Shown here piece after piece: positions 1,018 through 18,604 of a DNA stretch of 29,653 nucleotides. The notes beneath the pieces were generated by a model. That model was not told the origin of the DNA. It worked only from the letters and a program-made list of their open reading frames with translations, and did no database searches. Position numbers and translations under genes: made by a program. Source of the stretch: a virus; the IMG/VR virus record IMGVR_UViG_3300046482_000135, positions 1 to 29,653 of that record. One strand, given 5' to 3'. Positions within the stretch are counted from its first letter, which is position 1. Every line of letters starts with the position of its first letter.

Positions 1018-1037
1018 TCGACTTCCTCCTGTTTGGT

Positions 1038-4660: not shown

Positions 4661-4673
4661 TAGTGTCACACTA
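4661..4673. promoter_or_regulatory. 13-bp palindromic site, copy 1
   Basis: TAGTGTCACACTA, an exact copy. Its right-hand CTA (4671-4673) is the TAG stop codon of the DNA polymerase gene on the leftward strand. The YkgJ-like gene starts 14 bases further on, with its SD between. Confidence 0.85.
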
Positions 4674-6569
4674 GGTATCGCCGTACGTGTCCCCGATATG
4701 GCTTTCAGCCGCCAGAGCGATGTCCGGCAGCCACTCGGGTGAAGTCGACATCTCGGTTTCGACGAGCGTGGCCACCTGTTCGGCCAGATGCTCGTCGACG
4801 ACGTAAAGCAGCTCGTCGTGCACCTGATGCGCCGGCCATAGCAGGCCTTCGGTCATCTTCCAGACGCGGATGGCCACCTCGGCGATATGGACGAAGGCGA
4901 GGCTCTGGCATTCATTCTCGACCAGCTTGGCGCCGTAGAGCTTGTGCTGGCGCGGCCGCGTACGCCGCTTGCCGTCCTCGGAGACGATCTCCGTGCCGCG
5001 GTCGTAGACCCAGCCGAACTGTGCGCCGCCCGGCAGTAGCTCATGCCTGAGGTTGGCGTAGTTGAGCTTGTTGCCGTTGGGCAACAGCAGGTGCTGCGGG
5101 CCGACCTTCAGCGGACCCCAGTAAGTTTCCACGCCCTGCGCGATCTGCGGGATGACCTGCCGGTCGGCCTCGCGCCAGTGCTCGACGATCTTGGCGCATT
5201 TCGAGCGATACATGTTGACCACGAGCAGCGCCATGTTCTCGTTTATCGAAAAGCCGCCGGTCGACTTGTTGCGGACCATGTTCTGGAACACCGGCGCGCT
5301 GGAGCCGTAGCCCAGCGACAGGATGCCGGTCTTGCCGACGAAGCGCTCGTTCGGGTGGTCCTTCTTGTTGATGGCCTTGCCGTAGATGTCGACAGCGAAC
5401 TCTGCATAGACGTCACGGCCATGCCTGAACGCCTGCTGCAGCCACGTCTCGCCCGACACTTCGGCATTGATGCGCGCCTCGATCTGGCTGGCGTCGACCG
5501 ACACCACGACCTTGCCCTTCGGCGCTCTGAAGCTCTTGCGCAGCTTGGACCCGTTGGCGAGGTTCTGGACGTTGATCTTCCAGTCGCCACTGAGCCGGCC
5601 GGTGTGCGCGCCATAGTATTTGAGCGGCACTGGGGCTGCCAGCGTGCAGCGGGCGATCGCCAGCAGGCGCTCCGAGCGCGTCTCTTCCAGTGTCGACTTG
5701 TGGCCCAGCCGGGCCGCCACCACGGCCTGCACGGTGGGGTCGGGGTGCTCCAGCAGGTCGGTGAACTCCTTGTCGGTCTTGGCGAAGGCCGGCACGTCCT
5801 TCTTGGTCTTGGCCGACCACTTCATCGGCGGCTCGACGCCCAGCATGATCAGGATCGCTTGCAGCTTGGTGTCGCTCATCAGATTGGTGCGGTCGTCCAT
5901 GCCGGCGCTCGCCAGCAGCTGCGCCTTGTGGGCGCGCACTTCGGCGAGGTGCTCGACGATCATCGCCGGGTCGAACTCGAACTGCGGCACCGCCGCCATG
6001 CGGATGACCCAGTCGACGACCTCCAGCTCGCCTTCCGGAAAACCTTCCTTGAGCATCAGCTGCCACAGCGACCGGCATGTCTCGACGTCACGACGGCAAT
6101 ACTCCACTTCCTCGGCATAGAGCGCCGGGTCGGCGCGCAGCATGCGGTAGTTGACGCCGACCATTTTGCCGATGGTGTCGCCTTTCGGCGGCAGCCCGTA
6201 GCGCTTGGCGCAGGAGCCGAGATCGACCCTGCCGGCACCGGTCTGGTGCGAGATCCAGTTCCGCGCCATCGACAGCGTGCAGCCGTACGCCGCCGGGAAC
6301 ACCCGGTAGCGCAGGCTCAAAACCAGCATGTCGAACAAGGCGTTGTGGGAAATTGCTCGCGTGGTTTCCCAGTCGATCGTCTTGAAATACGCAGCGAGGT
6401 CCGGACCGTCCACCCACCAGCTCTTGCCGGTGTCGTAGGCGAAGGCGCAGCCCAGCATCTCGAACTGCTGGCCGAGGATGTATTCGGGCTGGGTTATCCT
6501 CTTGAGCGAGAACTCGGCGTCGAAGTACGACTCGACGTCGACAAACAGGTTGGTCAATGGCTTGGCCAT
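4671..6569 (-). CDS. Family A DNA polymerase with 3'-5' exonuclease
   Basis: This is a 632-residue replicative polymerase of the phage PolA type. The N-terminal DnaQ-like proofreading domain has Exo I DVE (D11, E13), Exo II NALFD (N76, D80) and Exo III YCRRD (Y157, D161). The polymerase domain has TGRLS (323-327), motif A VDASQIEAR (D359), motif B from R409 to GYG (K413, LGYG at 419-422) and motif C HDE (584-586). There is no 5'-3' exonuclease domain, as in T7-like phage polymerases. The start at 6569 follows GAGGGAG. The stop codon is embedded in palindrome copy 1, and the upstream region overlaps the candidate small RNA promoter. Confidence 0.95.
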   Translation of the reverse strand: MAKPLTNLFVDVESYFDAEFSLKRITQPEYILGQQFEMLGCAFAYDTGKSWWVDGPDLAAYFKTIDWETTRAISHNALFDMLVLSLRYRVFPAAYGCTLSMARNWISHQTGAGRVDLGSCAKRYGLPPKGDTIGKMVGVNYRMLRADPALYAEEVEYCRRDVETCRSLWQLMLKEGFPEGELEVVDWVIRMAAVPQFEFDPAMIVEHLAEVRAHKAQLLASAGMDDRTNLMSDTKLQAILIMLGVEPPMKWSAKTKKDVPAFAKTDKEFTDLLEHPDPTVQAVVAARLGHKSTLEETRSERLLAIARCTLAAPVPLKYYGAHTGRLSGDWKINVQNLANGSKLRKSFRAPKGKVVVSVDASQIEARINAEVSGETWLQQAFRHGRDVYAEFAVDIYGKAINKKDHPNERFVGKTGILSLGYGSSAPVFQNMVRNKSTGGFSINENMALLVVNMYRSKCAKIVEHWREADRQVIPQIAQGVETYWGPLKVGPQHLLLPNGNKLNYANLRHELLPGGAQFGWVYDRGTEIVSEDGKRRTRPRQHKLYGAKLVENECQSLAFVHIAEVAIRVWKMTEGLLWPAHQVHDELLYVVDEHLAEQVATLVETEMSTSPEWLPDIALAAESHIGDTYGDT

Positions 6570-6586: not shown

Positions 6587-6614
6587 TTGACGAATTTGCG
6601 TTTCTGACTATGTT
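6587..6614 (+). promoter_or_regulatory. Candidate rightward promoter for the small RNA
   Basis: TTGACG (6587-6592), a 16-base spacer and TATGTT (6609-6614) point rightwards, with a start site expected near 6621. The same bases contain, on the other strand, GTAACATAGT (6616-6607), a -10-like motif recurring elsewhere in this phage, so a leftward promoter for the polymerase may overlap it. Which of the two is used cannot be told from the sequence. Confidence 0.45.
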
Positions 6615-6620
6615 ACGCCC

Positions 6621-6743
6621 CGGAGCCGGCAGGGGCTAACCCTCTTTGTTCTCCGGTGACACGATGGGCATCAAGGCTTGCCGCTGCCGGCTCCAGCTTC
6701 TGTTTGGACTTGGCCCCCGGCCTCACCGGGGGTCTTTCTTTTC
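6621..6743 (+). ncRNA. Candidate small regulatory RNA, about 120 nt
   Basis: This gap between two leftward genes holds a compact rightward transcription unit. A sigma70-like promoter precedes it. The RNA would begin with an 11-bp perfect closing stem (6622-6632 with 6684-6694), enclosing a small hairpin AGGG/CCCU (6631-6643) and a GGCA/UGCC hairpin (about 6667-6682). It ends with a rho-independent terminator (6714-6743). The stretch left unpaired, about 6644-6666, contains UCUCCGGUGACAC, the exact complement of the RBS region of the ClpP-like gene (7610-7622). I know of no named RNA family that fits. A tRNA was considered because of the 74-nt stem length and rejected. Confidence 0.5.
6714..6743 (+). 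terminator. Rightward rho-independent terminator
   Basis: The stem CCCCCGG/CCGGGGG (6714-6720 with 6726-6732, loop CCTCA) is followed in the rightward direction by TCTTTCTTTTC. The pyrimidine tail exists only rightwards, although all neighbouring genes are leftward, which is why a rightward RNA is proposed. The tail runs into the stop codon of the 90-aa gene. Confidence 0.7.
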
Positions 6744-7014
6744 AGTCCGTGTGCATGTGCCGATGCCGTAGCAGCACCTCGTGCCCCAGCTTCGTCAGGC
6801 GTTCGCCTTCTATGCGGACATGATCCCAGTAGCGGTCGCCATAGCGTTCCTTGGCTTCGGCGGCCGTCATGTGTTCGCCCTTGGCGTTGACGTAGTTCCA
6901 CTCGGTCAAGCCGGCGGCCATGCAGTCGTAGCCGGTACGGGTCTTGCGGGGGTTGCTGGGCTTCACGTCCAGCAATCGCAACCACTGCAGGCGTTTCAGG
7001 GTCATGTTCAACAT
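6742..7014 (-). CDS. Hypothetical protein, 90 aa
   Basis: The function is not recognised. The protein is basic and has a conserved-looking centre RTGYDCMAAGLTEWNYVN and AKERYGDRYWDHVRIEGERLTKLGHEVL, which suggests a small folded domain. The ATG at 7014 overlaps the stop of the ClpP-like gene (TGATG), so it is translationally coupled to it; a second ATG at 7005 is possible. It ends directly on the rightward terminator of the candidate small RNA. Confidence 0.65.
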   Translation of the reverse strand: MLNMTLKRLQWLRLLDVKPSNPRKTRTGYDCMAAGLTEWNYVNAKGEHMTAAEAKERYGDRYWDHVRIEGERLTKLGHEVLLRHRHMHTD

Positions 7015-7604
7015 CACCACCACCCCAATGTAAACGGCTGCTCCATCACCTGCGCGCCGAGCGCCGCCAGCCATGCTGGCTCCAGCCTCGCCATGCCGCT
7101 CGGCGGCTGCGCGCACATGACCTCGAGCGGCGTGCGCGGCGCGCCGTAGCGGACCAGCCGCTCCGCGGCGCGGCGCGTCCACCTGACGTCCGGCAGCCCG
7201 CTGGCGTCGTCGGTTACCTGATGCACGCTGATGTCGGCGTCGGCAGTAATCAGCAGCCGGCCGCGGCCGAGCGCCACCAGCGCGGCAAAGGCACAGGCCG
7301 ATACGCACTCGTCGTCGACGAACACGTCGAACCTGTTCCTCGCCACCAGATCGGCGAGCAGCATGCCGGTGTCGCCGTCGCCGCCCCACGAGTCGAGCCA
7401 CAGCGTGGTCACCACCTTGCCGTCCTGCTTGGCCTCGTCCAGCGCCCGCCAGATGCGTCGTATGTCGCCTTTCCTGACGCCGCCTTCATAGTAGAGAGCC
7501 ACCTCGCGGCCGCCATCGTTCGGCTGCCAGTATATCCGCGCAACGCTGACGTCGGCGGCCTGCGCTGCCGTGCACAGTGCCAGATACGCTAACAATGTCT
7601 TCAT
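7014..7604 (-). CDS. Secreted ClpP-fold (COG3904-like) protein
   Basis: This 196-residue protein begins with a short signal peptide (MKTLLAYLALCTAAQA, cleavage after Ala16), so it should act in the periplasm. The body matches the ClpP/crotonase-like fold of COG3904-type predicted periplasmic proteins: LWLDSWGGDGDTG (68-80, the usual 'LDSxGG' oxyanion loop), VDDECVSAC with the candidate nucleophile Ser102, and ADADISVHQV (His128). The substrate is unknown. The family is known mostly from bacteria and its presence in a phage is unusual; roles in lysis, envelope modification or superinfection exclusion are all guesses. SD GGAG lies within 7610-7622, the segment complementary to the candidate small RNA. 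Confidence 0.8.
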   Translation of the reverse strand: MKTLLAYLALCTAAQAADVSVARIYWQPNDGGREVALYYEGGVRKGDIRRIWRALDEAKQDGKVVTTLWLDSWGGDGDTGMLLADLVARNRFDVFVDDECVSACAFAALVALGRGRLLITADADISVHQVTDDASGLPDVRWTRRAAERLVRYGAPRTPLEVMCAQPPSGMARLEPAWLAALGAQVMEQPFTLGWW

Positions 7605-7606
7605 GA

Positions 7607-7622
7607 TTGTCTCCGGTGACAC
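7607..7622 (-). promoter_or_regulatory. RBS of the ClpP-like gene, complementary to the candidate small RNA
   Basis: On the leftward strand this reads GTGTCACCGGAGACAA just before the ATG. The plus-strand 13-mer TCTCCGGTGACAC at 7610-7622 is repeated exactly at 6650-6662 inside the candidate small RNA, so that RNA could pair with and block this RBS. Confidence 0.5.
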
Positions 7623-8737: not shown

Positions 8738-9057
8738 CCCCCGCCCTCCGCCGGCACGACTGCCTTCAGCCAGTCGGGATCGAACGGCCGGTCCTTGAGC
8801 AGGTTGGCGACGTGGCTGGCACCTTTATCGCTGCCTACTGCTACCGGCTTGCCCGTCGATGTCAGCCACCAGCACAGTTGGTAGGCGACGTTGCTCTCGC
8901 TCCACGCGAAGATGGTGCCGTCCTGCCAGATGTAGTCCGGGTTATCCCCGCCCAGCTTGACATACGGCTTACCCATGGCGGCGCAGTCGCTCAGGTTGTG
9001 CATGGAGTAGACGGCGGCTGCGACCAGCCACGCCTCTTCTCGATCGGTCAGGCTCAT
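8734..9057 (-). CDS. Hypothetical protein, 107 aa
   Basis: The start at 9057 is fixed by an ATGA overlap with the 468-aa gene, and the end by an ATGA overlap with the next gene. Sequence patches such as WQDGTIFAWSESNVAYQLCWWL and the acidic end PFDPDWLKAVV look like a small globular domain rich in Trp. I cannot assign a family. Confidence 0.65.
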   Translation of the reverse strand: MSLTDREEAWLVAAAVYSMHNLSDCAAMGKPYVKLGGDNPDYIWQDGTIFAWSESNVAYQLCWWLTSTGKPVAVGSDKGASHVANLLKDRPFDPDWLKAVVPAEGGG

Positions 9058-10460
9058 TGCGTCACCTCGTAGACCTTCGAAACCGTGCCCAGCCTGATGT
9101 CGCCACGCTTGTGCGGCTTCTTCCACCAGATCTTGGCACCACAGCCGTGCACGCACTCGCCGTGCTTGGGGTCGGTGAGCACGAACTTGTGCGTGCAGCC
9201 GGCACCCTTCTTGCGAGACTGGCACCAGTGCTCGCGAACGTCGTGCTCCTTGCGGTGGGCGCCGGTGATATGCTCCGACATCCGCCGCAGCGCGTCCTTC
9301 TGCTCGAGGTGGACGGTGACCTTGTTGTAGGCTACCGCCGCCACCTGCCTTGCCCCCAGCCACACGCGCCGTGCCGGCCGCGGCTCGTCCGAGAAGTAGA
9401 CGTGCTTGTTCGGCCTCGTCAGGATGATCAGCATGATCAGCGCCTGCTTCATCATGCCCGCACAGGACGCCAGCATTTTCTGCTTGGCCACGACGGAGAC
9501 GTCGCTCTTCTCCAGCATGGCCATGAAGCCGGGATCGAACTCGAACATGTGGCTGCGCACAATCGCCGTCACCTCCGGCCCCATCAGGTACTCGCGTTGC
9601 GTCATCTCTTCCTTCCGCGGCCCGTAGCGGCCCATCACGTAGGCCCGGTAGGTCGGCACGTCGAAGTGAAAGAACTGCGCCATGCGCAGCTCCTCTTCCT
9701 GCGATACAGGCGTGTTCAGGCGGACGCGGTAAGGCAGGAAGGATGCCGACTTCGGCGTCGACCCCATCGACGCCGTCCAGATGAAGCCGTGGTCGTAGAG
9801 GTAGCCGACCTTGGTGTCTTCCTCCGGGCCTCTGGTCGATGCGACGATCGCCGCATAGGCGAGACTGTCGTACTCGATCCAGCACAGCTCGTACGGCGCC
9901 CGCGCCATCTCGTGCTGGGCCAGCACCTGATCGCCGAAGTCCATCGTCACGTGGCCGAAGAACTCCGACGCCATGCTGTCCAGCATGAAACGCTGCGCCT
10001 GCAGCAGCTTGAGCCGCGGTGGCGTGGCCATGTACCTGTCCGTGTAGTCGTTGCGCAGCAGGACGTCGATCAGGTTGGGCTCGTCCGCTTTCTTGGGGAA
10101 CACCCATCGCCCCTTCGAGTAGTCGAGCTTCTCCTCACCGCTCATCAGCTTGTCGAGATCGTGGCTTTCCGGCGACACCCACGCCGCTTCCACGTTGCTC
10201 TTCTTCCGCGTCATGGGGTTGTCCCGTCCGGCTCTCCTCATGCCGTGCGGCCCGGTCTTGTGCTTGCTCATGCCATCCTCCTTCTGCATCACTGCCTCGG
10301 CGATCGCTGTGGTCGACAGCCGGTTTTCCGGCCGGTCTTCCGGATGGGTCGGTCGCTTGTCTTCCCTCATGATCAGCAGCGGCTCACGTTCGACAGCGCC
10401 GCGCTCTTTGTTCTCCAGTTCCTTCTTGCTGTACTTGAGGCCTCGGCGTCTCCTGCCCAT
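9054..10460 (-). CDS. Large phage protein of unknown function with C-terminal Cys/His region, 468 aa
   Basis: This is one of the largest unassigned genes of the window. The N-terminus is very basic (GRRRRGLKYSKKEL) and polar to about residue 110. The middle is helical with hydrophobic stretches (MLASCAGMMKQALIMLIILT). The C-terminal 90 residues contain HDVREHWCQSRKKGAGC, CTHKF and HGECVHGCGAKIWW, a likely zinc-binding end, followed by HKRGDIRLGTVSKVY. Similar 'H-x-R-G-D-x-x-x-G-x-V' endings occur in unassigned phage proteins. SD GGAG lies 8 bases before the ATG. It is directly downstream of the VWA gene. Confidence 0.7.
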   Translation of the reverse strand: MGRRRRGLKYSKKELENKERGAVEREPLLIMREDKRPTHPEDRPENRLSTTAIAEAVMQKEDGMSKHKTGPHGMRRAGRDNPMTRKKSNVEAAWVSPESHDLDKLMSGEEKLDYSKGRWVFPKKADEPNLIDVLLRNDYTDRYMATPPRLKLLQAQRFMLDSMASEFFGHVTMDFGDQVLAQHEMARAPYELCWIEYDSLAYAAIVASTRGPEEDTKVGYLYDHGFIWTASMGSTPKSASFLPYRVRLNTPVSQEEELRMAQFFHFDVPTYRAYVMGRYGPRKEEMTQREYLMGPEVTAIVRSHMFEFDPGFMAMLEKSDVSVVAKQKMLASCAGMMKQALIMLIILTRPNKHVYFSDEPRPARRVWLGARQVAAVAYNKVTVHLEQKDALRRMSEHITGAHRKEHDVREHWCQSRKKGAGCTHKFVLTDPKHGECVHGCGAKIWWKKPHKRGDIRLGTVSKVYEVTQ

Positions 10461-10462
10461 GA

Positions 10463-11800
10463 TCAGAGCTCCACGTGGATCACTTCACCAAACGGCACCT
10501 TTGTCCTGCCGCCGATCGAGCACCAGATCACTGGATAGGACGGCGACTTGTCGGGAAACGTGCCTTGCGTATCGGTGAGGTAGACAAGGCAGTCGGGCTG
10601 CAGGTGATGCACGGCCACGTAGTCGAACACCGGCTTGAAGCTGGTGCCGCCTCCACCGGGTGCGCCTCCGGCGCGGTTGATTTCATTGCGCAGGGCGATG
10701 AGGTCGGTCGGCTCTGACAGGTCGTCGACGCGCTGCACCGCGGCGTCGCACCAGACGATCACCAGTCGCTCCGGGTTGAGGTCGGCGACGATGCCGCCGG
10801 CTTCGGCGAAGAAGCGCTGCTGCACGGTCGATGATACGCACGAGCCCGACGTGTCGTAGCCGATGACGATGAGGCCCGCACCCTTGTGCCCCATCTTGGC
10901 ATAGTACAGCGGGTCGGGCTCGCGTCCGGCCAGTCGCCTGTTGCGATAGCGCCAGTCGAGCTTGGGCTCGCCGGCGCGCCGCGTCATCGAGCTCCTGAGG
11001 TGCTGCTGCCACGGCACCTTCGGGTTGATGATGTCGTCGAGCAGCAGCTTCAGCGCTCCCGGCATCGTGCCGGCCATGGTGCGCCGCGCAATCTCGGCCG
11101 CGGCGACGATGGCATGCTCGCGCCTGACCTTCTCCCGGTCGACGACGCGCTGTGCCGGCTCGATATGCTGGTCGAAGCCGGAGCCGGGCACGCGCAGGAT
11201 GCCGGGGACGTAGCGCGTACCGCCGGCCTTCTGCTTCGCCTTCTCCTCCCTGTAGATCTTCTCGTAGATTTCGACGCAGCTCTCCATCCCCTTGGCCGAG
11301 ATGTCCTTGTTGAACAGCCCGATCTCCGGCATGCGCCCGAGCTTGGCGTCGACGAGCATGGCGTTGATGCGGTAGTCCATCGCCTTGTTCATGATGTCGT
11401 GGTCGTAGGGCAGGACGCGGCCGCCGCCGAGCGACACCTGCCCGGTCTGCCGCCAGATGATCCCCATCAGCAGGTCGCCGAGCACCCGGTGGCTGACCTC
11501 GTGCGCCAGCACGAAGACGCGCTGCATGATGTCGTCGATGCCGAACAGCTCGAGACTCTCGTGATTGATGAAGATGTGGACGCTGTCGGTGGCGGCGAGA
11601 GGTATGTCGTGCGTGTAGACGATCTCCATGCCGTCGTAGATCATCTGTGCGAAGAATGGCCACTTGAACACGAGGTAGGCCATCGCCTCGCGCCAGTGCT
11701 TCTCGATGCTCTTCGGCGGATCGTAGGACCGGAACCCGTAGAGCAGTTCAGGTTTCTCGCGCTCGATGTCGATCGTGTGCTTGACCAGCTTGTCAGCCAT
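10463..11800 (-). CDS. DUF2201-like metallopeptidase-fold plus VWA domain protein
   Basis: This 445-residue protein has two parts. The N-terminal domain contains VFVLAHEVSH (HExxH, residues 100-104) and DHDIMNKAMDYRINAML about 33 residues on, the arrangement of the DUF2201 putative metallopeptidase. The C-terminal domain is a von Willebrand A fold with the MIDAS motif D316-T-S318-G-S320. The combination is known from VWA partners of MoxR/CobS-type ATPases, and such an ATPase is encoded just upstream (12102-13211). A start at 11800 follows AGGAG. A -10-like motif and palindrome copy 3 lie in its leader, so it can be transcribed separately from the ATPase. Confidence 0.85.
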   Translation of the reverse strand: MADKLVKHTIDIEREKPELLYGFRSYDPPKSIEKHWREAMAYLVFKWPFFAQMIYDGMEIVYTHDIPLAATDSVHIFINHESLELFGIDDIMQRVFVLAHEVSHRVLGDLLMGIIWRQTGQVSLGGGRVLPYDHDIMNKAMDYRINAMLVDAKLGRMPEIGLFNKDISAKGMESCVEIYEKIYREEKAKQKAGGTRYVPGILRVPGSGFDQHIEPAQRVVDREKVRREHAIVAAAEIARRTMAGTMPGALKLLLDDIINPKVPWQQHLRSSMTRRAGEPKLDWRYRNRRLAGREPDPLYYAKMGHKGAGLIVIGYDTSGSCVSSTVQQRFFAEAGGIVADLNPERLVIVWCDAAVQRVDDLSEPTDLIALRNEINRAGGAPGGGGTSFKPVFDYVAVHHLQPDCLVYLTDTQGTFPDKSPSYPVIWCSIGGRTKVPFGEVIHVEL

Positions 11801-11880: not shown

Positions 11881-12102
11881 TCAGGTGTACCAGTGCCTGC
11901 CGTTGCGGCGGATCACATGGACCATGCCGCCACGTCGGCTCAGCTGGTGGTGCAGCTCGCCGTAGTCGCAGCCGGCCATCTTGGCTGCCGTCGACATCGT
12001 GGTGTTCGCGGCGAAGCCGATGCTGTTTACGCGCACCAGCTCGTCGCTCTCCTTGCCGCCGAACGGCATCAGCTTGATCGTGTAGATGCGGCTCTGTTCC
12101 AT
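11881..12102 (-). CDS. Hypothetical protein, 73 aa
   Basis: The ATG at 12102 overlaps the stop of the AAA+ ATPase gene (TGATG), so it is coupled to it. The protein is short and basic at the end (HQLSRRGGMVHVIRRNGRHWYT), with STAAKMAGCDYGELHHQL, which could be a small helix-turn-helix-like segment, but this is not convincing. The family is not recognised. Confidence 0.65.
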   Translation of the reverse strand: MEQSRIYTIKLMPFGGKESDELVRVNSIGFAANTTMSTAAKMAGCDYGELHHQLSRRGGMVHVIRRNGRHWYT

Positions 12103-13211
12103 CAGAACCTCGACGACACGATGGCGAGCAGCTGCTTGTTTGCGACTGCCCAGTCGCCGAAGGCCTTGCAGCTCATGAGCGACTTGTCGCGGGTCAGTGC
12201 GTTGCGGTAGAACGACACGCCTAGGTCGGTCTGCAGGCGTCCCATGTAGGTGACGAGCTGGTCGATGTTCTTCTTGTCGGCGGCATCGGCCATGTTGAAG
12301 ACGATGAACATCTGCTTGTCCATCTCCTTGGGCACCGGCGTTCCCGTCGGGTCGGCGATGATCTGCGACACCGTCGGTATCTTGTCGCGCAGCCCGGCAA
12401 AGGCGGTGTACTGCTGCGCCGAACCGGAGCCGACCAGCCCGCCGGCAGTGACGATCACGCCCGGGTCGTCGAGCGGGATCTTCCTTCTCACCACTTCCTG
12501 CATGTAGCGGTCGAGCAGCTCCAGCGACCGCGGTGTCAGCCACGGGCCCTGATCCTTGGGCACGTTGCCGGCGAACACCTCATGCGCCGGCATCGAGGCG
12601 AACGCCATGGTCATGTTCATCAGCCCCTTGCCGACCGCCCACACCAGCCAACTGTCGATGTCGAGCGCCATGTGGAGCTCGGCGCGGCGGTTGATCAGGA
12701 AGTCGAAGTCACGGGTGACGGCGTCGCGGCCGCCTTCGTAGTTGGACAGGCCGATGATGTTGAAGTCCTGCGGCAGCGGGTGCTGGCCGACGCGCTTCTC
12801 AAGGAAGGTCTGGCCGAGCGCCCGCTTGAGGTCGAGGTCGGTCTGCCCATACTCCTCGAAGACGATGACGCCGCGCCTGAACTGGAAGGCCGGACGCCCT
12901 GACCGCTTGTCGAAGAGGAAGTAGGGGTAGGAGTAGCGCCCCGCCTCGATCGTCACCTCGTTGCCGTCGGCGTCGGTGTAGTGCTCGGTGTTCTTGTAGA
13001 ACCAGCCGGCATAGTCCGGCTGGTTGGACAGCGAGCCGTTGATCTCGAACAGCCCGTAGTCCGGGCCCTGATCGTCGGCATACTGCTGGATCATCGAGGT
13101 CTTGCCCTGACCGGGCTTCGACTTCAGCACCACGGCGACATTGGCGGCGAACAGCAGCTCGATCTGCCGCCGCGTCTCCGCAAAATCGAGTTCCACGATA
13201 GGCCTGCTCAT
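12102..13211 (-). CDS. MoxR/CobS-like AAA+ ATPase
   Basis: This 369-residue AAA+ protein has Walker A SKPGQGKT (31-38), Walker B VIVFEE (115-120), sensor 1 asparagine in IIGLSN (N157) and an NRRAELHM segment (174-181) typical of MoxR-class ATPases. Such ATPases act as hexameric chaperones together with a VWA protein, as in RavA-ViaA or CobS-CobT. The VWA protein (10463-11800) is two genes downstream and a helical protein upstream may be the third component. AAGGA precedes the start. Phage versions exist, but their targets are unknown. Confidence 0.88.
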   Translation of the reverse strand: MSRPIVELDFAETRRQIELLFAANVAVVLKSKPGQGKTSMIQQYADDQGPDYGLFEINGSLSNQPDYAGWFYKNTEHYTDADGNEVTIEAGRYSYPYFLFDKRSGRPAFQFRRGVIVFEEYGQTDLDLKRALGQTFLEKRVGQHPLPQDFNIIGLSNYEGGRDAVTRDFDFLINRRAELHMALDIDSWLVWAVGKGLMNMTMAFASMPAHEVFAGNVPKDQGPWLTPRSLELLDRYMQEVVRRKIPLDDPGVIVTAGGLVGSGSAQQYTAFAGLRDKIPTVSQIIADPTGTPVPKEMDKQMFIVFNMADAADKKNIDQLVTYMGRLQTDLGVSFYRNALTRDKSLMSCKAFGDWAVANKQLLAIVSSRF

Positions 13212-13257
13212 GATATCAATCCTTCCGTTTGGGAGTTCTTTTCTGTTGGCTGTGCCA

Positions 13258-13292
13258 GAGGCCGGGGCGTCCTACCCCGGCCTCCATATTTT
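13258..13292. terminator. Hairpin between helical partner and ATPase
   Basis: A perfect 10-bp GC stem (13258-13267 with 13275-13284, loop CGTCCTA). In the rightward direction it is followed by CATATTTTTA, which overlaps the stop codon of the leftward gene. No U-tract follows leftwards, so it might attenuate leftward transcription and stop rightward antisense transcription. Confidence 0.5.
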
Positions 13293-14230
13293 TACATCAA
13301 TCCGTCCAGCGTCTTCAAAATCTCCTTCGCGCGCTGGCTGACGTCCTGCCGGATCGCCTTGTGCTTCTTGAGATCCTCGCTGTCGACGTGGTCGAAGCCC
13401 TCCAGCTCGGTCGCTATCTGCTCGAGGAACTTGTCACCGACCAGATTGAACGAGCGGAACACCTTGGCGACGTCGTGGATGTTTTCGATGATGGTGGTCT
13501 TGAACGTACCCTCCTTTCCCACCGTCTCGCCCTTGGCTTTCAGCTTCTCGCGTTCGTCGTAGGCCGCCATCCGCTCGATGACGTTGCGCAGCGGCAGCGC
13601 CAGCTTGCGGAGTGCGTCCTTGGTCGCCTCCTCATAGGCGGCGCCGATGTCGGCCTCGAACTTCTCGCGCATCTGCTGCTCGAACGCCTTGCCGCCCGTC
13701 GTGGTCGTGTACGAGGCCACGTCCGGCACCGGCTGGATGTCGAACACCATCGAGAACGACGCCTTGATCTCGTCGACAGTCGGCGGCGTCACCTTGTACT
13801 TGCCGAGATTGCCCTTGGCCGCGTTGATATGCAGGGCGGCATCCTTGCCGAACTGCGCTACCAGCGTGTCGTGCTCCTTCTGCAGGTCCCCGTACTCGGT
13901 CAGGAACTCCTGCAGGTTGACGTTCGGCATCAGCCGCCGGTCCGGCCCCCACGCCGTGGTGCGGTCGCGCAGCAGCTCGCGAGCCCGACGCTGCACGGAT
14001 TTTATTTTGGCCACCGCCTTCTCGGCACCGGGCAGGCGGTTGACCACCGTCTTGGCGGTGCCGATCTTGGCGGCATGGGCCTTGTCGCTATCCTCGCTGG
14101 CATCGCGGTCGAGTCGCTGCATGCCGAGCACCGAGGCTTGGATGACGGCAACGACCGCCACTTCACCTATCATCTTCGACAAGGGTTTCGACTTCACCGG
14201 CACGGCCGGTGTCTTCTGTGATGTAAGCAT
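13292..14230 (-). CDS. Helical partner protein of the AAA/VWA block (DUF3150-like)
   Basis: This 312-residue protein is mostly helical and charged, with KSVQRRARELLRDRTTAWGPDRRLMP (about 75-100) followed by NLQEFLTEYGDL and a long helical C-terminus. In other phages, proteins of this size and pattern (DUF3150 type) are encoded beside a CobS-like ATPase and a VWA protein; I base the assignment on this pattern, not on a search. The ATG at 14230 is chosen over an in-frame GTG at 14254 because GAGGTGA lies before it. It is first after the best promoter of the window, which has a palindromic operator in its spacer. Confidence 0.75.
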   Translation of the reverse strand: MLTSQKTPAVPVKSKPLSKMIGEVAVVAVIQASVLGMQRLDRDASEDSDKAHAAKIGTAKTVVNRLPGAEKAVAKIKSVQRRARELLRDRTTAWGPDRRLMPNVNLQEFLTEYGDLQKEHDTLVAQFGKDAALHINAAKGNLGKYKVTPPTVDEIKASFSMVFDIQPVPDVASYTTTTGGKAFEQQMREKFEADIGAAYEEATKDALRKLALPLRNVIERMAAYDEREKLKAKGETVGKEGTFKTTIIENIHDVAKVFRSFNLVGDKFLEQIATELEGFDHVDSEDLKKHKAIRQDVSQRAKEILKTLDGLM

Positions 14231-14256
14231 GTCAATCACCTCTGTTTGGTACACGC

Positions 14257-17982: not shown

Positions 17983-18242
17983 CACTCCACCTCCGGCATC
18001 AGCGTCACCTGCCAGTCGACGTCCGGCCGCGCGTCGGCGAGCCGGGCCTTGAGCATGTCGAGGTCGAGCTCGTCGCCGACCTCGAAGTCGAGGTCGCGCC
18101 ACACTCCTTCCTGCGCACCGGAGAAGGTGAACGGCCAGCTGCCGACGCCGGAGCCGCACTTGTTGGTGCCGACGACGTCCTGCACCATCTCGTCGAGATC
18201 GAACAGGCCGCGGTAGGGGTAGCTCACGTTGATCTGTTTCAT
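17982..18242 (-). CDS. Hypothetical protein, 86 aa
   Basis: Start at 18242 overlaps the stop of the upstream gene (TGATG). The sequence MKQINVSYPYRGLFDLDEMVQDVVG followed by GSWPFTFSGAQEGVWRDLDFEV and RPDVDWQVTLMPEVE suggests a mixed alpha/beta fold, acidic overall. Family not recognised. Confidence 0.62.
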   Translation of the reverse strand: MKQINVSYPYRGLFDLDEMVQDVVGTNKCGSGVGSWPFTFSGAQEGVWRDLDFEVGDELDLDMLKARLADARPDVDWQVTLMPEVE

Positions 18243-18580
18243 CAGTTGTCGCTCCTTGTCTGGGACTTGCTGCGCTCGACCAGCGCCACCAGCTGCTCGG
18301 CCTGCTCGTGGTCCGGGCAGGCGATGGCATTGATGGACACTCTCGTGTCCGGCTTGTTTTTGTGCAGGCCGAAGCGGTCGGACACCGGCATCAGCCCGAT
18401 GCCGGAGGGATGATCGTCGTCCGGCCATATCGCCCACACGATGTCGTGGCCGTCGATGACCGCCACGAGGTGCAGCCCCGCCTCCTCGTCTGTCATGGTA
18501 CTCATCATCAGCGTATTGGCGTTGGCCAGCCCGATCAGATCGTCGATGAACTGCTCGTAGTAGTCGTCGTTCTCCGTCAT
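18242..18580 (-). CDS. Hypothetical acidic protein, 112 aa
   Basis: ATG at 18580 follows AGAGGAC. Contains GLHLVAVIDGHDIVWAIWPDDD, two strands, and a C-terminal CPDHEQAEQLVALVERSK helix. First gene of a coupled set (18580 to 17377) with palindrome copy 5 in its leader, so this is probably an operator-controlled unit. Confidence 0.65.
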   Translation of the reverse strand: MTENDDYYEQFIDDLIGLANANTLMMSTMTDEEAGLHLVAVIDGHDIVWAIWPDDDHPSGIGLMPVSDRFGLHKNKPDTRVSINAIACPDHEQAEQLVALVERSKSQTRSDN

Positions 18581-18604
18581 ATCATTGTCCTCTGTTTGGA
18601 TAAC

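Follow-up and report, generated by a model that had tools for sequence, protein, structure and literature searches.

A candidate small RNA gene beside a phage DNA polymerase gene, with predicted pairing to several ribosome-binding sites of its own phage

The locus and its candidate RNA gene

The window analyzed in this study is the whole stretch of 29,653 bases of an IMG/VR virus record. All the genes around the element described here run leftward, namely the polymerase gene (6569-4671), a gene at 7014-6742 and the ClpP-like gene (7604-7014). The candidate small RNA gene is divergent and located upstream of the DNA polymerase gene (Table 1). Its predicted +1 (around 6622) is the first base of a long hairpin and the RNA ends with a U-rich tail. 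As far as the sequence tells, its promoter, its intrinsic terminator and its intergenic location are those of an independent transcription unit.

Two segments of this RNA could act as seeds. The segment 6650-6662, previously described as single-stranded, is only partly so: in the MFE structure, 6647-6651 and 6654-6655 are paired in weak internal helices of the big hairpin, so that opening this seed costs energy. The fully unpaired part of the MFE structure is the linker, which was overlooked in the initial annotation. A search with 4227 Rfam models gave no match above the gathering threshold in the window. With 23 bits (E about 0.05), the resemblance of the 3′ terminator module to mmgR/suhB and to the Betaproteobacteria toxic sRNA families is weak and far under their gathering scores of 41 and 50.

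Table 1. Coordinates of the features of the window discussed in this work (TIR, translation-initiation region)
Feature	Position	Strand	Basis or remark
Predicted target site CCAAACAG before gene 613-1017	1029..1036	-	8-nt linker-seed match
Family-A DNA polymerase, syntenic anchor of the small RNA	4671..6569	-	phrog_17, E=1e-63
Sigma70-like promoter TTGACG-N16-TATGTT for the small RNA	6587..6614	+	Consensus scan, 9/12 positions; relatives with like layout
Candidate small RNA gene, about 121 nt	6622..6742	+	Spacing from promoter, terminator, fold z-score of -3.3; 11 phages with positional counterparts
Long hairpin, base stem GGAGCCGGCAG / CUGCCGGCUCC, presenting the loop seed	6622..6694	+	MFE and centroid structure
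Loop seed UCUCCGGUGACAC, complementary to the RBS before gene 7014-7604	6650..6662	+	Exact match; net energy rank 2/42 TIRs
Linker seed AGCUUCUGUUUGGACUU, unpaired, complementary to RBSs of the CCAAACAG type in several genes of the window	6695..6711	+	Unpaired in MFE; TIR matches
Intrinsic terminator, GC-rich stem and UCUUUCUUUU	6712..6742	+	U-run ends at stop codon of next leftward gene
Putative secreted ClpP/SppA-fold protease-like protein, 196 aa, predicted target gene	7014..7604	-	PHROG 26024, NfeD1b_N, N-terminus
Shine-Dalgarno region GUGUCACCGGAGA before the ClpP-like gene, predicted target site	7610..7622	-	Exact match and duplex energy; just 5′ of ATG at 7604
ATPase (phrog_1297), conserved predicted target	12102..13211	-	PHROG E=5e-50
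Predicted target site CCCAAACGGAAGG, initiation region of the ATPase gene	13221..13233	-	Rank 3/42 TIRs; pairs with linker seed
Predicted target site CCAAACAGA before gene 13292-14230	14241..14249	-	Rank 1/42 TIRs
Predicted target site UCCAAACAGA before gene 18242-18580	18591..18600	-	10-nt linker-seed match

Predicted pairing with initiation regions of the window

The exact identity between 6650-6662 and 7610-7622 that was initially reported stands: TCTCCGGTGACAC is found on the + strand at these two positions, with no third copy in the window. The second copy reads GTGTCACCGGAGA-CAATC-ATG on the minus strand and overlies the Shine-Dalgarno (SD) sequence of the leftward ORF 7014-7604, to which the RNA is therefore antisense. 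The suggestion that pairing extends past one bulge agrees with the duplex prediction, which gains UUG and reaches a hybrid energy of -28.9 kcal/mol, the net energy after opening costs being modest (-10.3 kcal/mol). Calling the encoded protein "ClpP-like" and "secreted" relies on a weak PHROG 26024 protease match (E=3e-5), a weak NfeD1b_N match under the Pfam cut-off and an N-terminus judged by eye to be signal-peptide-like.

A 13-nt match to any TIR was reached by 30 of 20000 dinucleotide shuffles of the RNA (0.15%) and by 27 of 6000 random window segments devoid of the palindromic repeat (0.45%). The 13-nt antisense on the SD exceeds chance (p about 0.002-0.005) but is not overwhelming on its own. 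The words GTGTCAC/GTGACAC are frequent in this phage, their source being nine copies of the palindrome TAGTGTSACACTA, and the identity is therefore slightly less surprising. In a cross test, the TIR of the ClpP-like gene ranks 2/42 for net duplex energy with its own RNA and 13 to 29 with eleven other RNAs.

Two other observations concern these sequences. The nine exact copies of TAGTGTSACACTA (13 bases each, at 4661, 7686, 11822, 14269, 18605, 21175, 21826, 22505 and 22580) all apparently lie in intergenic leaders, with 0.1 copy expected by chance; they are not repeated in related phages and resemble a set of operators or stoperators for a phage regulator. Another perfect 13-nt antisense match links 6640-6652 of the RNA to 10404-10416, i.e. 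about codons 15-19 of gene 9054-10460, and may be due to chance.

The linker seed CUUCUGUUUGG is complementary to the CCAAACAG-type RBSs preceding the genes with starts at 14230, 18580 and 1017, and to CCCAAACGGAAGG of the ATPase gene, i.e. four RBSs besides the one of the ClpP-like gene. Among the 42 TIRs of the window (all TIRs used in this work were derived with a simple ORF caller), three contain linker 8-mers, a result equalled by 155 of 20000 shuffles. CCAAACAG is found in 3/42 window TIRs versus 2/1091 TIRs of other genomes. Beyond chance, the RNA is thus partly complementary to the initiation regions of unlinked mRNAs. Since the predicted sites (7610, 13221, 14241 and others) are located about 1-12 kb from the RNA gene, it does not correspond to a cis-antisense RNA of the OOP or sar type.

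Related phages with an RNA in the same position

Searches with the polymerase, the ClpP-like gene and the DNA gave no close relative suitable for direct seed/RBS covariation. A profile search with the polymerase retrieved 80 loci encoding proteins with 35-41% identity; in the distant relatives considered below, the identity of the polymerase is about 36-41%. Four of them (L007-L010) harbor, in the divergent slot upstream of the polymerase gene, a TTGAC/TATATG promoter, a short RNA and a terminator. Scanning for the shared loop added seven members (L107, L113, L117, L126, L170, L187 and L188), each with homologs of the window polymerase or of its neighbours close by, leading to a set of 11. The L170 contig (IMGVR_UViG_2906643746) is about 65% similar in DNA to Rhizobium phage RHph_TM29 along part of the region. 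When the whole viral collection was scanned for the promoter plus the motif, 14 matches appeared, nine of them in member phages and five due to chance; the latter (L231-L235) were rejected as members because they are devoid of the polymerase. The only viral contig matching the 19-nt seed (L002) was also rejected, the match being unrelated and inside a coding gene, and so were L110, L125, L138, L143 and other 14-mer matches, which are coding coincidences: they fall within a long ORF (about 680 aa) of the opposite strand.

The 11 carriers encode an RNA of about 75-95 nt including a hairpin CUCC-UGUGGGUG-GGAG and a terminator, with the same position and orientation as in the window and a similarly placed promoter (TTGAC-N17-18-(C)ATATG). 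The loop UCCUGUGGGUGG is invariant in all members (11/11) whereas the 5′ stem and the terminator vary in sequence yet keep their pairing; in L007, the seed stem is changed by compensation to UUCC/GGAA. None of the seven member loci compared to Rfam exceeded a gathering threshold. Compared to L007-L010 and the others, the window RNA likewise lies divergently and directly upstream of the family-A polymerase gene. However, the covariance model of the relatives (R1) gave no match at 6622-6742, so that the window RNA is a positional analogue of these RNAs, by position, architecture and function, not by sequence homology.

The nearest annotated relative is the Rhizobium phage RHph_TM3_14A. It carries a stable divergent hairpin pair (L003:5638-5722, minus strand, z -5.1) upstream of a small gene preceding the polymerase gene, which is possibly a diverged form of the RNA; no convincing targets of this candidate were found in its genome.

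The enrichment of antisense words was examined in the 11 carrier genomes and in six non-carriers, the window being counted as a non-carrier of the UGUGGGUG seed. Relative to CDS, the TIRs of carriers are 13-fold enriched in 8-mers antisense to the loop and those of non-carriers 2.6-fold; in carriers, the control words reach 4-fold (reversed) and 0.7-fold (complement). A word set devoid of the SD part is found in 22 of 826 carrier TIRs and in one of 307 other TIRs, and none of 1000 permutations reaches 22. Perfect RNA/RBS matches extend over 11-17 nt in carriers. In the L009 phage, ACCCACAGGAGU, the exact complement of the loop (12 nt), is the RBS of the ATPase gene, of the gene directly upstream of the polymerase gene and of a small gene. 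In the L188 phage, four RBSs match the RNA over 17, 13, 12 and 12 nt. No RBS match longer than 9 nt was found by the perfect-match test in L007, L113, L170 and L187. Carriers of the UGUGGGUG seed have ACCCAC(AGGAG) initiation regions; the window has neither this seed nor these regions but has its own matched pairs. Independent variation of seed and RBS, the outcome that the initial annotation took as speaking against a regulatory RNA, is thus the opposite of what we found.

On the L188 contig (L215:1516-1737), the RBS with the 17-nt perfect antisense precedes a gene encoding a 73-aa HTH-like protein, possibly a regulator under the control of the RNA.

Each RNA was also compared to all the TIRs of its own genome by an accessibility-corrected duplex scan. 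The TIR of the AAA-type ATPase gene (phrog_1297) ranks 1, 1, 1, 1, 2, 2, 3, 5, 9 and 17 in ten carriers (for example 1/92, 3/44, 1/59, 5/83, 2/98, 1/93 and 1/87), and the corresponding window TIR ranks third of 42 with the window RNA, although the window seed is unrelated in sequence to that of the carriers. The combined ATPase score is -35.5, compared to -22.2 at best over 15 rounds of shuffled RNAs. The TIRs of the polymerase and helicase genes of the same genomes mostly rank low, and the ATPases of the carriers rank lower on the whole when paired with the window RNA. These scans suggest that the conserved target is probably the ATPase mRNA and that the ClpP-like gene is probably one among several targets. 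The ATPase gene and the gene of a VWA-like metallopeptidase (DUF2201, 10463-11800) are a pair conserved in these phages, close to the replication genes.

Proposed role, alternatives and significance

Considering the anatomy, synteny, antisense enrichment and seed/RBS matching of this RNA, we propose, with a probability of about two thirds, that the + strand of 6622-6742 encodes a small RNA acting in trans on several phage RBSs, a local version of the polymerase-linked RNA of the relatives whose seed would have evolved with the RBSs of its own genome. We infer its transcription, which would start at its own sigma70-type promoter and stop at its intrinsic terminator. The loop seed and the linker would then pair in trans with the SD regions of several leftward genes, the proposed targets being the ClpP-like gene (7604), the ATPase gene (13211) and three genes with starts at 14230, 18580 and 1017. 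Occlusion of the SD is an established mechanism of small RNAs. Since such pairing should block 30S binding, repression is the likeliest effect. Of the initial proposal that a phage small RNA silences a phage-encoded secreted protein, the pairing with phage RBSs is supported by the anatomy and strongly by the relatives, silencing would follow if SD pairing acts in this way, and the nature of the protein is as tentative as the matches given above.

Several other explanations have to be weighed. In the window alone, the 13-nt identity could be a coincidence favoured by the palindrome TAGTGTSACACTA, which enriches GTGTCAC words, the linker being the true seed: the matched word is partly half of this palindrome, the leader at 7604 contains a palindrome copy followed by a similar CCGGA, and the linker is unpaired and matches more TIRs. 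However, this appears unlikely, as so few palindrome-free segments (27/6000) reach 13 nt and the match falls exactly on the SD. It is more doubtful that the small RNA is real but mainly addresses host mRNAs, host RNAs or a titrated host factor, its matches to phage RBSs merely reflecting a generic anti-SD CUCC in the loop. Indeed CUCC can pair with any SD, and known phage small RNAs such as PreS act on host mRNA (PMC12197685), but the enrichment persists without the SD part and is absent in non-carriers, and the cross test is phage-specific.

The element could also act on the leftward mRNA, as a leader hairpin upstream of the polymerase gene in which an RBS-like sequence happens to be duplicated; it would then be either a plain duplicated leader or a translational attenuator. 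In favour of this, the fold of the minus strand (z -4.5) is no less stable than that of the + strand, and its sequence is RBS-like. However, as noted initially, no start codon follows the minus-strand copy at 6650-6662 in the window, and of four relatives inspected for this point three (L007, L008 and L010) likewise have none. In all members, or nearly all, it is the + strand that bears the sigma70-like promoter and the U-run of the terminator, and a leader would not predict the enrichment of antisense words in the TIRs of other genes. This makes such a leader quite improbable. That the divergent transcript serves replication, as a primer or an origin RNA, with incidental pairing, is hardly plausible: its position beside the DNA polymerase gene is conserved but the conserved part is the loop complementary to RBSs.

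The proposed trans-acting RNA resembles small RNAs that occlude SDs in trans (FnrS, and VpdS of phage VP882) by its own promoter, intrinsic terminator and short seed on several RBSs. It differs from them by its location in a phage genome beside a DNA polymerase gene, by its predicted targets, which are genes of its own replication module and accessory genes, and by a seed that varies between lineages along with the RBSs. OOP (lambda), sar (P22) and c4 (P1/P7) are also phage RNAs that block phage gene expression through pairing and OOP, like the window RNA, adjoins replication genes. However, they involve overlapping or linked transcripts with long complementarity, or pairing within one transcript, whereas the targets predicted here are distant and multiple and the seed is short. 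The protein RegA of T4 is a translational repressor that down-regulates many phage mRNAs at their initiation regions; the role proposed here can be likened to that of RegA, although RegA is a protein. A 2025 review of phage small RNAs (PMC12197685) describes OOP, sar and c4 as acting on linked phage transcripts, PreS on host dnaN and VpdS in trans. The literature searched, whose coverage is incomplete, contained no description of a conserved polymerase-linked small RNA addressing several RBSs of its own phage. Since the window RNA is antisense to RBSs of its own genome, and the RNA of eleven distant relatives has another seed suited to the genes of those phages, it seems to be a hitherto undescribed switch directed by phages at their own genes.

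A broader reading, to which we give even odds, is that this polymerase-A phage lineage carries a dedicated small RNA as post-transcriptional master regulator of its own genes, with a seed and an RBS set coevolving as a private code that differs between phages, and with the ATPase/VWA-metallopeptidase module as conserved core target. Known phage small RNAs mostly target one linked phage transcript or the host. If the proposal is true, a conserved small RNA acting on many RBSs of the phage that encodes it, its seed and its targets being matched genome by genome, would play, as an RNA, the part of a phage-wide translational repressor. Such a system would also offer a clean natural series on the joint change of a small RNA and its regulon, and would make it easier to predict gene functions in uncultured phages.
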